This document shows positions 30,106 through 33,210 of a stretch of DNA of 64,000 nucleotides, piece after piece; positions within the stretch are counted from its first letter, which is position 1, and the number at the start of each line of letters is the position of its first letter. This stretch comes from Komarekiella atlantica HA4396-MV6. Lineage in GTDB: Bacteria; Cyanobacteriota; Cyanobacteriia; Cyanobacteriales; Nostocaceae. The DNA is taken from the NCBI GenBank assembly GCA_019359395.1, contig JAHHHK010000006.1, positions 124,001-188,000 on the forward strand, read 5' to 3'. The notes under the pieces are model-generated. The model was given only the letters and a program-made list of their open reading frames with translations, was not told where the DNA came from and ran no database searches. Made by a program: the position numbers and the translations under genes.

Positions 30106-30140
30106 CTTAGTCAAAAGGAATCTATTCTCAGTCAATAGTA

Positions 30141-30167
30141 GGGTGGGCATTGTAATGCCTACCCTTT
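30141..30167 (+). terminator. Terminator after aspS
   Basis: GGGTGGGCATT, 2-nt loop, AATGCCTACCC (one G-T pair), followed by TTT, 36 bp past the aspS stop. Confidence 0.7.
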
Positions 30168-30438
30168 CAACGCGAACACATGAACTAGTGAATTGTAATC
30201 ATTAAATATCAGAGAAACGGCATCAACGGGCTTTTGAGTTGTTGCTCAAACGCTCAGACCGACCGTTGCCACCTAGTTAAACTGATATGTACCCGATGCC
30301 CCTCAAAATCGGTTACACCAAGATTTACAATGAAAATTCTCAACTGAGATAACAAGCGATCGCTGATGTCATTTTTGGGCTGAAAATCCTTGTATAATCG
30401 GTTAAAGTCAGGTTCCTGGCATTTACTATAAAAATAAA

Positions 30439-30645
30439 CTAAAGTGTTTTTAGATAAAGTTTATTTGCTAATTTTGAACATTTGTGTTGTTGGAAAAAAT
30501 AGAGGAGCGATCGCTTATTCCTAATTATCCTTGGCAACTTCACAGATTGAATGTGTCGCCATTCTTCATTAGCTATGCAGAGTTGATAAAACTGCTCGTC
30601 TGTCAAACCTACGGTGGGGGGTATATTCAGGCTGAGAGCTTCCAT
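30439..30645 (-). pseudogene. Truncated Uma2 endonuclease relic
   Basis: From the ATG at 30645 the frame reads MEALSLNIPPTVGLTDEQF and continues YQLCIANEEWRH, which is the typical N-terminus of Uma2 (DUF820) proteins. After about 30 residues the similarity stops: the following 37 residues are unrelated and no PD-(D/E)XK core is present. It is therefore a fragment of a larger gene. Two intact Uma2 genes lie at 38381-39648. The frame can be extended upstream through AT-rich DNA, but this adds no family sequence. Confidence 0.65.
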
Positions 30646-30839
30646 AGGGGTTTTGCCAATAGTGTTAATTTTATTATGAGCGAGGCTGCTAATATAAATT
30701 GTTGTTTGAGGCGATCGCAGATTCAGCAGATTTGTATGCAATATTAGAGTCGAACGATTGTTCAGCTTTATTGCTCTGCGGCGGACAGAAGAGAAAAAAT
30801 AAAGAAATGTAAAGAGCAAAAAGGCAAAAGAGAAAAGGG

Positions 30840-32816
30840 CTAGGGAGTCCTCGCAGGAGAACACACAACCCGAAACCCGATGTCATAGTTGTTGAAGTCT
30901 GGAAGATTCCTGCGGCGATAAGCGGAACGGCAGTAATCAGGATAGATGAGCCAAGAACCACCGCGAAGCAGACACATATAGTTATGATTATGAATTAACC
31001 ATGCCCTGCCATCATTAGGTGCGCTCTGATAGTTATCGTGCCAGTGGTCAAGACACCACTCCCAAACATTGCCGTGCATATCGTAAATTCCAAAGGCGTT
31101 TGCTACCCCAAAACTGCCCACGTCTGTAGTCTGTTTCGGATACTTCCCCTTTGAACCAGAACCATAAATATAAGTTCCATTATAATTTGCTAAATCAGTT
31201 GTAATCGTTTCGCCAAAGTGGAAGGGCGTGGTGGTTCCAGCCCGACAAGCATATTCCCACTCAGCTTCGCTGGGTAGACGATACTCCCGTTCAAATTTCT
31301 GGGAAAGTCGCGCACAAAATTCAACTGCATCTAGCCAGGATACCTGCTCTACAGGGCGATTTACTCTTTTGAAATAAGAAGGGTTAGGTTCCAAGTCATA
31401 GTTAATTGTGGGTAAAGCAGCAACAGCCTGCCATTGTGCCTGAGTTACTTGAAACTTACCCATGAAAAAAGGTTGAATTGTGACTTTATGCTTTGGTTCT
31501 TCGTCGTCACTTCGCTTTAATTCACTTTTTGGAGAACCCATCAAAAACTCACCACCAGGAATAGAAACCATATCCAGGGTAATACCATTCCCCAAGTCAG
31601 CAATGAAGTACTCCGCCTGACCCCGCCAACGGTTAGTTTCCTCACCTTGGGCGTTGACAGTTACTACGTCAAATTCAAACTGCTTGGCTTGATTTTGTTT
31701 TATAAGTCCAGGATATTGTTTAACAGATACGGTCGGTTTTCTCTGACCAATAATCTTTTCTTCTATTGATGCGACATCTTCATCCCTAAAATTCAGGATG
31801 TTTTGTAAACGTTTTAAGGCATTGCGGTCTTTTTCACTGATGGGGTATTGCCGTTTTATTACCTGAGATAAAGCTTGCTCATAACGTTGCAATTTTTGCT
31901 GTCGCTGGCGATATGGTTCAAGAGCCTCGAACTCAATTAAATTAGCCTCCTCAACCGATAATCTCAGCTGATTTCGCAACTCATCTAGATAGATGCGGTT
32001 GATATCGATAATTTCTCCTTCGTCCTCAAGCACAATCTGATCAAATACTTTGCAGTATTTGAGCTTAGGGTCATCAACAGGCGCTTTCGCCAGCCGAATC
32101 CTGTAACCTTCTTTAACAGGATAAAACTGTGGTGTCATCGCAGGAGCAGCTTCCAGCACCTTGCTACTGGCATAATTATGCAACTCATCCGCTGAAATCC
32201 AGCCATCTTCGTCTTGGTCTGCTGTTCCTTTCTCAATTCCCTCTACCAGATAACGAGTGTAGATAGAAAGGTCAGACCCTTCTTGCTCAAAGGAATATTG
32301 AGTGGAGGTGGAAGATGTAAGAATTGCTCGACCTTTACTACCTAACTGTGCCTGGACATCCACAGAACCATCATCTTTGACAGTCAATCCATCAGGAAAA
32401 GCTCCACTAAAGCAACAGTCTAAAATAATTACCTGTCGCTCTGATTTACTGCCATTCATGCTGTCATGGAGGAATCTAGCGGCGACTGCCGTAGGTGTAA
32501 CTAATCTTCCATGTTCTAGGCTAGTTTCACCGCTTGATAGAAAAAGGTTGCGGCTTTCATCTTTAACCCCATGACCAGAAAAGTAAAACAGCAACAAGTC
32601 ATTTTTCTGGCGATTGGCAAACAGCGTGTAAATGGCTCTCTCCATCACCTGTCGCTGTGGATTTGTCAGTACTACCACATCTGCTGCTGCGAATTCACCC
32701 ATTTCAGGATGTATCAAAACCTGCTTGAGGGCTTCCACATCCCTAGAGGCAGAGGGTAACGAGGTTAGACCTAATTCATATTCACTTACCCCAATTAGCA
32801 AGGCAAATTTAGCCAT
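30840..32816 (-). CDS. EACC1-associated caspase with EF-hand loop and C-terminal FGE/C-type-lectin-like domain
   Basis: A 658-residue multidomain protein. Residues 1-245 form a caspase-fold (C14) protease with catalytic His82 (FSGHG) and Cys135 (LDCCFSG). A canonical EF-hand loop, DQDEDGWISADE, lies at 200-211 and suggests Ca2+ control. A helical region follows (250-370). Residues 400-655 are an SUMF1/FGE-type C-type-lectin fold (MVSIPGGEFLMGSP, EYRLPSEAEWEYACRAG, GNVWEWC, LLRGGSW...GFRVVC). The position of the first catalytic Cys of true FGE appears to be Ile624, so it is probably a binding domain. Its start overlaps the EACC1 gene by 8 bp, implying coupled translation. Likely role: stress- or phage-triggered proteolysis or suicide; this is inference. 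Confidence 0.85.
   Translation of the reverse strand: MAKFALLIGVSEYELGLTSLPSASRDVEALKQVLIHPEMGEFAAADVVVLTNPQRQVMERAIYTLFANRQKNDLLLFYFSGHGVKDESRNLFLSSGETSLEHGRLVTPTAVAARFLHDSMNGSKSERQVIILDCCFSGAFPDGLTVKDDGSVDVQAQLGSKGRAILTSSTSTQYSFEQEGSDLSIYTRYLVEGIEKGTADQDEDGWISADELHNYASSKVLEAAPAMTPQFYPVKEGYRIRLAKAPVDDPKLKYCKVFDQIVLEDEGEIIDINRIYLDELRNQLRLSVEEANLIEFEALEPYRQRQQKLQRYEQALSQVIKRQYPISEKDRNALKRLQNILNFRDEDVASIEEKIIGQRKPTVSVKQYPGLIKQNQAKQFEFDVVTVNAQGEETNRWRGQAEYFIADLGNGITLDMVSIPGGEFLMGSPKSELKRSDDEEPKHKVTIQPFFMGKFQVTQAQWQAVAALPTINYDLEPNPSYFKRVNRPVEQVSWLDAVEFCARLSQKFEREYRLPSEAEWEYACRAGTTTPFHFGETITTDLANYNGTYIYGSGSKGKYPKQTTDVGSFGVANAFGIYDMHGNVWEWCLDHWHDNYQSAPNDGRAWLIHNHNYMCLLRGGSWLIYPDYCRSAYRRRNLPDFNNYDIGFRVVCSPARTP
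30870..30962 (-). other. Candidate DGR variable region
   Basis: Codes for GGSW to GFR (residues 619-649) of the caspase-FGE protein. Conserved framework residues (W, P, CRSA, R, P, GF) alternate with variable ones at exactly the sites where cyanobacterial retroelement targets have template AAC/AAT codons. Nearly all variable codons end in C or T (CTC, ATC, TAT, GAT, TAC, TTC, AAC). No reverse transcriptase or template is in this window. Confidence 0.55.
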
Positions 32817-33210
32817 CAGCCTTTGTTACACTAACTTTTATCTTGGAAAGCCTTTCAATGGCACTCAAAGCATCATCTAGCTGCTCTTTATTGCCATACT
32901 CTAGCTTGTACTTTGTGCCATTATCTTCATACTCCAGCTTCACTGTTTTTCCATAGAAGCGATTCCCCAGCGAATCTAAGAGTTCTTTAGCTTTCTTAGG
33001 ATTTACTACAGTTTTCAGCATTCCTGGTATAAATCCCGCTAAAGCTGGTTTACTCCCCTTGGGAATTTCAGATTCTCTAACTGGTTCAGAATTCTCTACC
33101 AACTCACTAATTTCTTGTGCAAGATTAATGGTTAATTCTTCTAATTCTTCTGGCTCTAAATCAATATCAGCATTAGTCAAATCAATCAATACCTGAACAT
33201 TGTTTAACAT
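32809..33210 (-). CDS. EACC1 (effector-associated constant component 1) protein
   Basis: A 133-residue protein with the EACC1 layout: an N-terminal LEPEELEELTINLAQEI helix, a VPLGxx-like linker (EIPKGSKPA), a hydrophobic GFIPGMLKTVV segment, and a C-terminal strand-helix unit (GKTVKLEYEDNGTKYKLEY, then a final helix). EACC1 was described by Aravind and colleagues as the constant component of bacterial conflict systems encoded next to caspases or other effectors. The 3' end overlaps the caspase start by 8 bp. I recognise it from pattern and context; a profile search would settle it. No strong Shine-Dalgarno sequence precedes the ATG. Confidence 0.7.
   Translation of the reverse strand: MLNNVQVLIDLTNADIDLEPEELEELTINLAQEISELVENSEPVRESEIPKGSKPALAGFIPGMLKTVVNPKKAKELLDSLGNRFYGKTVKLEYEDNGTKYKLEYGNKEQLDDALSAIERLSKIKVSVTKADG

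Follow-up and report, generated by a model that had tools for sequence, protein, structure and literature searches.

Variable proteins that join an N-terminal orthocaspase-like peptidase to a C-terminal C-type-lectin-like (CLec) domain have been described from cyanobacterial diversity-generating retroelements (DGRs) (Vallota-Eastman 2020, PMC7517822). DGR targets have been regarded as putative antigen sensors in multicellular bacteria (PMC10907252), and low-level adenine mutation has been reported in cultured Nostoc punctiforme (PMC12691664). The variable region (VR) of the Bordetella phage BPP-1 DGR closes with an IMH end and is followed by a hairpin important for homing (PMC3240598), and the trailing RNA of the Bordetella DGR was predicted to be structured (PMC8867640). 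Isolates of Treponema denticola carry VR-bearing targets with neither reverse transcriptase (RT) nor template repeat (TR), which were read as remnants (PMC4891356). The EACC1 system consists of a small 5' gene and a caspase gene with many alternative C-terminal domains, and EACC1 is described as having a single transmembrane helix (Kaur 2020, PMC7159879).

The gene described here lies in a 64,000 nt stretch of the Komarekiella atlantica HA4396-MV6 genome, referred to as the window (G000:C68:124001-188000), where G000 is the window's own genome (a 7.78 Mb draft assembly of 80 contigs, 99.86% complete), G001-G004 are the other genomes of the genus, and L- and C-numbers denote loci and contigs. 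It has the same domain pair as the proteins of PMC7517822 and likewise a VR near the 3' end; the targets described there are internal to the DGR or remote from it and that survey, as set out, starts from genomes with DGR parts, whereas no DGR was found in G000. Targets without RT or TR are already known from T. denticola and the window gene is a further case, with a probable scar. Unlike the targets reported in PMC4891356 it belongs to another phylum and is another protein, and it adds a probable scar of the template RNA together with partial stages in relatives. Its IMH-like end resembles that of BPP-1 (as described in PMC3240598), but half of the window's hairpin is gone and no machinery was found. 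As in the EACC1 system described in PMC7159879, a small 5' gene accompanies a caspase gene with a changing C-terminal domain; unlike that system, the small gene of the window matches EACC1 weakly and the C-terminal domain would be a former DGR target. From the sequence comparisons that follow we consider it very probable that the tail of the target gene is an orphaned ('fossil') DGR VR, the mutator having been lost and the tip being now fixed.

The target gene (30840..32816, minus strand) encodes 658 aa comprising a caspase domain (PF00656, residues 3-221), a linker and an FGE-sulfatase/C-type-lectin-like domain (30864..31574, minus strand; PF03781, residues 415-651, 185.6 bits). The caspase scored 164.3 bits against the NCBIfam family caspase_w_EACC1 (NF047832, EACC1-associated; cut-off 140). 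Overlapping the start of the target gene is an upstream partner gene of 133 aa which is weakly EACC1-like (32809..33210, minus strand). A homologue of this small gene was also found upstream of six further target orthologs, those which were aligned. PF19953 (EACC1) weakly matched four of the seven partner-gene homologues (E up to 0.1, best 0.0032) and was not among the families listed for the window's own partner gene. Within the orphan reading, which as a whole we hold with high confidence, the target gene is taken to be the caspase half of an EACC1-caspase-type two-gene operon, the EACC1 match of the partner being weak. Catalytic formylglycine-generating enzymes carry two active-site cysteines in the motif LCxxxYC after GGS. 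When this was checked by eye the window sequence GGSWLIYPDYC was seen to retain the second cysteine alone, while G004_C160 has GGSYLCAPNYC. As the first of the two active-site cysteines is missing, the target FGE part is probably a binding domain.

The earlier note had placed an LRGGSW...CRSA...GFRVV tail pattern at the end of this gene, and LLRGGSWLIYPDYCRSAYRRRNLPDFNNYDIGFRVVCSPARTP, followed by the stop codon, does close the 658-aa reading frame at that position. The VR, reckoned from the LLRGGSW codons to the last codon, spans 30843..30971 (minus strand) and is supported by its 74.5% match over 110 nt to the TR of L029 and by comparison with the ortholog in G003. It contains a stretch with 15 variable codons (30882..30950, minus strand; residues 623-625, 627-628, 635-638 and 640-645). 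The gene end GCGAGGACTCCC (30843..30854, minus strand) is IMH-like: GAGGACT was present at the gene end in 8/17 target tails, the window included, and AGGACT in 11/17, with variants in the remainder, and TR ends differ from target gene ends at this position. A CT-rich tract lies 3' of the stop codon (30786..30839, minus strand) and was also seen in the other target flanks compared, except L192. The variable codons had further been said to end nearly always in C or T. This was so for 14 of the 15, but it is a weak sign, and we rejected it as proof of a DGR, since 12/16 framework codons of the same stretch show it too; in each of the frozen families C59 and C66, 9/15 variable-position codons have C or T as third base. 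The CRSA-x-R motif was also rejected as a DGR diagnostic, as C59 and C66 carry it in all five genomes of the genus with 'variable' residues that are nearly constant.

The closest ortholog, in G003 of the same genus, is syntenic and has the same upstream genes as the target gene; the comparison is one between species, with one genome per species. The two proteins differ at 13/250 residues in the caspase domain, at 30/200 in the rest of the FGE domain and at 73/165 in the linker (window 31563-32066), which is far above either domain. Within the VR the residues defined as variable by templates differ at 15/15 positions and the framework at 0/17, the variable class having been taken from the adenine-bearing codons of the L029 and G019 templates and the mask having been written after the pair was seen aligned. 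The earlier proposal of a DGR-type variable region on a caspase-FGE protein was supported by this contrast. Moving residue 633 (identical in the pair, with an adenine in the templates, scored as framework) and residue 646 (I/L, unclassed) to the variable class gave 16/17 against 0/16. At the nucleotide level, positions 1 and 2 of the variable codons differed at 21/30 sites compared with 57/227 four-fold sites (binomial 3e-7, Fisher 2e-6). When the mask was slid along the gene against G003 (625 offsets) a score of 1.0 was obtained at residue 619 only, offsets one residue away scored 0.56 and 0.50, and the next best was 0.41; the pattern therefore exceeds what chance would give. Residues 601-620, right before the VR, also vary (7/20 against G003). 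Four-fold sites in the VR framework differed at 7/13 compared with 50/214 elsewhere (Fisher 0.021), an excess that copying of the tail from a template would lead one to expect.

In the control families C59 and C66, taken from the same two genomes, 0/15 and 0/15 variable residues differed, and four further C59/C66 pairs gave 1, 1, 1 and 0 of 15; the FGE domains of both families are more conserved overall (5/200 and 9/200 against 30/200 in the target). Other VR-type pairs vary like that of the window, with 13/15 and 14/15 against G001_C186, and C56 compared with G004_C119 gave 12/15 variable and 3/17 framework differences. The comparison of C56 with its disrupted G003 counterpart on C15 was less clean, with 11/15 variable residues, 16/30 sites at positions 1 and 2 of variable codons, 6/34 at the same positions of framework codons and 10.7% of upstream bases differing. 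Because the two VR classes contrast in this way between G000 and G003 and the controls remain at 0/15, the window tail can be said on statistical grounds to have changed after the species split, at the masked codons and faster than neutral sites. Differences spread equally over all bases, which had been named beforehand as evidence against a DGR, were not what we observed, the change within the VR between G000 and G003 being located at the masked codons.

Consistent with the earlier observation that the window holds no reverse transcriptase, a PF00078 search over G000 gave four places, all on C15 and C19 and none on C68. The best C15 RT was rejected as a DGR RT on account of its intron maturase and HNH domains, as was the C19 RT, a 762-aa protein missed by a regex for the DGR RT motif; the same motif types the DGR RTs among the loci collected from relatives. 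On G000:C15, a contig with two FGE paralogs, three RT matches cluster at 106523-109585, one with maturase and HNH domains and one with an internal stop, and at L003 (G000:C19, 1057-3345) the RT-containing 762-aa protein is preceded by a 180-aa ORF. DGR RT queries returned just weak matches in G000, at the C15 and C19 places. The query is sensitive, matching 17/60 genomes at E<=1e-90; within the genus, G001-G003 yielded no match, G000 yielded the C15 place, and the RT matched in G004 was 30% identical. PF00078 gave two to four places in each of G001-G004, some at contig ends, of which G004:C128 alone was examined, so that the lack of a DGR RT in these four genomes is a result of the DGR RT query. 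For Avd (NF033474) there were three matches in G000 of at most 23.5 bits against a cut-off of 80, and one of the five genus genomes, G004, exceeded the cut-off with a copy that carries a TAG. DNA searches of G000 with tails and templates found no free TR, the nearest sequence being a fused tail on C56, and tblastn gave no match to Avd or RT relics 3' of the target gene (30106-30839). The expectation of a template at another place in the genome was not supported, as no free TR, DGR RT or above-cut-off Avd was found in G000, and with these lacking and a 3' flank that is scar-like, a sensor that is hypervariable now is not supported. A genome with no template repeat or DGR RT had likewise been named as evidence against the proposal, and this is what the G000 searches returned; taken with change that is not spread over all bases, both results fit a VR whose retroelement was lost.

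To place the gene among its relatives we collected 101 loci, 78 of them from a search in which the best 80 of 97 matches were kept. A DGR-type RT (by the same motif) was present in 8/101, a ninth regex candidate (L065) being judged not to be an RT, and same-frame template repeats were found in seven of these eight loci (not L033) and in further RT loci. At the G019 ortholog the order is target-Avd-RT-TR, with an Avd of 141.6 bits (cut-off 80) and a target frame that is broken near the tail. In G006, Avd and part of an RT lie after the ortholog, a full RT being located on another contig. Ten genomes have an ortholog at E<=1e-150, three of which (G006, G019, G022) have an RT match at E<=1e-90. 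Of the targets in G004, one still has a TR some 200 bp downstream of it, with neither Avd nor RT in the interval, and another keeps an Avd with a stop; in G027 an Avd match of 37-39 residues follows the ortholog. On G000:C56 (L186, 7889-8168) and G003:C15 (L190, 8650-8919) a caspase-FGE tail runs into a TR-type 3' flank, which for C56 was matched over 273 nt (73%, E 3.6e-39, single-contig search) and contains the template-RNA hairpin (73 bits). Recombination of a VR with a TR could account for these fused tails. The C56 flank recurs as a second copy of 28 nt at G000:C56:340912-340939. DGR-type RTs were also found on five cyanobacterial plasmids, one of them from Nostoc, with 65-69% identity to the G019 RT at a query coverage of 97% or more.

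Downstream of the template repeats, 19 sequences (L029, L114-L128, L189 and others) align over approximately 180 nt from the TR end onward. Alignment A1 was made from 27 Asn-rich tails; L049, L056 and L112 were set aside because they looked like the ends of ordinary ORFs, L032 (near-duplicate), L055 and L117 (insertions) and L092 and L094 (no recognisable terminal hairpin) were omitted, and L173 was replaced by its longer copy L189. Changes on both sides were found in 29/42 predicted pairs of the template RNA, and two-sided changes numbered 119 cells, while shuffling gave 34.9 (sd 5.1) and the slid controls 11-28; here the structure was predicted on the same alignment as was tested. In the fold the TR end CTCTTC or CTCCC pairs with a downstream GAAGAG or GGGAG. 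A conserved, covarying RNA fold thus follows cyanobacterial DGR template repeats. Rfam gave rRNA alone on four loci with TRs and one match far below the gathering score on the target gene region, and we found no description of this template-RNA fold in cyanobacteria in the literature searched, which was largely open-access. A covariance model (R1) built on the last 58 nt of the template RNA matched 30/60 genomes, all five genus genomes included. All 17 genomes with an RT match at E<=1e-90 are within these 30; most had fed the model, while G009 and G033 had not. The other 13 of the 30 are without an RT match at E<=1e-90 (G000-G004, G010, G011, G013, G015, G026, G034, G036 and G059); among them G004 and G034 had contributed to the model, and fragments of an RT persist in G010 and G034. 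In G015 the R1 hairpin (62 bits) directly follows the target ortholog.

The 3' flank of the target gene appears to bear the scar left by loss of a template RNA. A GC-rich stem of 5-6 bp was found 50-72 nt past the stop in 8/17 target flanks, not in the window's, where alignment with G003 (TCCGCC-GCA-GGCGGA) leaves the left arm and loop of the GC hairpin (30776..30785, minus strand) with the right arm missing. Beyond it is a 23-nt piece (30747..30769, minus strand), probably a scrap of a DGR template RNA's 3' end, recognised with a PSSM and having a longer counterpart in G003. At 23 columns the scrap ranked first of 127,956 window positions with 17.9 bits, a small margin over the runner-up at 16.2; its rank was 1 at 20 columns, 4 at 26 and 12 at 30, and the G003 counterpart scored 23.2 bits (23 columns). 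Model R1 gave no match at the scrap in the window, and in G003 its best match was at the counterpart with E 0.84, so that the scrap is backed by sequence and position and not by structure. It is probably a remnant of the last hairpin of the template RNA, with the deletion junction between it and 30776. In the CT tract and the flank adjoining the VR, G000 and G003 hardly differ.

Templates were compared with VRs in six TR-VR pairs. The five pairs of L029 and L063 mismatched at 11-20 adenines and at 0 of the 73 or 74 remaining positions, and the G004 pair (L189, G004:C119, 6336-7000) had 14/25 at A and 0/80 at non-A positions. As no DGR-like RT was found in the G004 genome, trans action or a very recent loss is possible there. 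Against seven distant TRs the window VR gave an adenine bias with p from 6.5e-4 to 0.15, and p<0.05 was reached with 5/7 TRs for the window VR, 5/7 for C15a, 4/7 for C15b, 1/7 for C59 and 4/7 for C66. Frozen and other paralogs thus show some bias too, and adenine bias against foreign TRs was rejected as proof of a DGR. The G003_C15 tail (L190) differed from a G005 TR of another genus (L118) at 3/74 non-A positions, a likeness that suggests movement of DGR parts between genera.

In the history that we favour, an ancestor would have carried the target gene followed by Avd, a DGR RT and the template RNA, and the tail would have been rewritten at template adenines. Such rewriting, or replacement of the tail from the template, would have continued after the split from the sister species. 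A deletion with one end in the post-gene hairpin and the other within the 3'-terminal part of the template RNA would then have removed Avd, RT and TR, leaving a tail that should now be passed on like any ordinary, fixed binding surface. We infer that the lectin-like tip binds an invader or a partner signal and that the caspase acts on binding, loss of the machinery having frozen one version of the tail. Several observations weigh against this orphan reading: the absence of an R1 match and the small margin at the scrap, a GC stem in 8/17 target flanks only, the variation just before the VR and across the FGE domain, a mask written with the aligned pair in view, an adenine bias that frozen paralogs show as well, and the draft state of the assembly. 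In addition, the deletion seems to be largely common to G000 and G003, as does the C56-type fusion, so that a change of the tail after the split needs a template that is now absent or else independent losses. The loss at the window locus may have come before the split, the tail then being changed from another template in trans, or twice after it; the clean G004 TR-VR pair and the plasmid DGR-type RTs make a trans source possible. The same plasmid RTs (five, one of them from Nostoc), the G004 pair (14/25 A, 0/80 non-A, though the RT query found just a 30% identical RT there) and the change of the tail since the split from G003 would also suit a VR that is still live, its rewriting being done in trans by a DGR that the assembly lacks, such as one carried by a plasmid. 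We judge this quite improbable, as the genome is 99.86% complete with no DGR-like RT in the five genus genomes, no TR in G000 fits the window VR, and the hairpin after the VR is halved, whereas that of BPP-1 is reported as needed for efficient homing (PMC3240598). A related proposal is that the genus has non-autonomous DGRs, in which targets and template RNAs without their own RT or Avd are rewritten in bursts by a plasmid-borne RT, much as some transposons borrow a transposase. This we offer as a rather doubtful suggestion, under which the G004 TR-VR pair and the change in the window VR since the split would be its traces.

Alternatively, the domain might be an ordinary FGE/C-type-lectin one in which selection drives rapid evolution of the surface loops, with a convergent likeness to a VR. 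Non-variable paralogs do share the RGGSW...CRSA...GFR frame, and the target's linker and FGE domain also diverge fast (73/165 and 30/200); set against this, C59 and C66, which have the same fold, show 0/15 changes between the same genomes, in the VR only the masked codons changed while the frame stayed constant, and orthologs adjoin Avd and RT, and we regard the explanation as highly improbable. The greater divergence of the four-fold sites in the framework (7/13 against 50/214, Fisher 0.021) could instead point to a tail swapped by gene conversion or 3'-end transfer from another VR gene with no DGR action in the lineage, the more so as VRs or TRs seem to travel (G003_C15 against the G005 TR, 3/74 non-A mismatches). 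No close donor was found in G000, and since the flank is near-identical in G000 and G003 any conversion tract must have stopped at the VR, which counts against a swap; we consider it unlikely. It overlaps with the orphan reading and is not exclusive of it, the tail being in either case an orphaned VR.

If the orphan reading is right, the window gene shows what may befall a hypermutable bacterial sensor once its mutator is lost: the gene stays and the tip freezes. A short piece of template RNA can mark the deletion of a DGR, and the template-RNA hairpin works as a marker, with 30/60 relatives matching. Surveys which begin from the RT would miss former DGR lineages, because 13 of the 30 hairpin-matching relatives are without an RT match at E<=1e-90. 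With such genes in hand the usefulness of frozen sensors, comparable to a fixed antibody, becomes testable.
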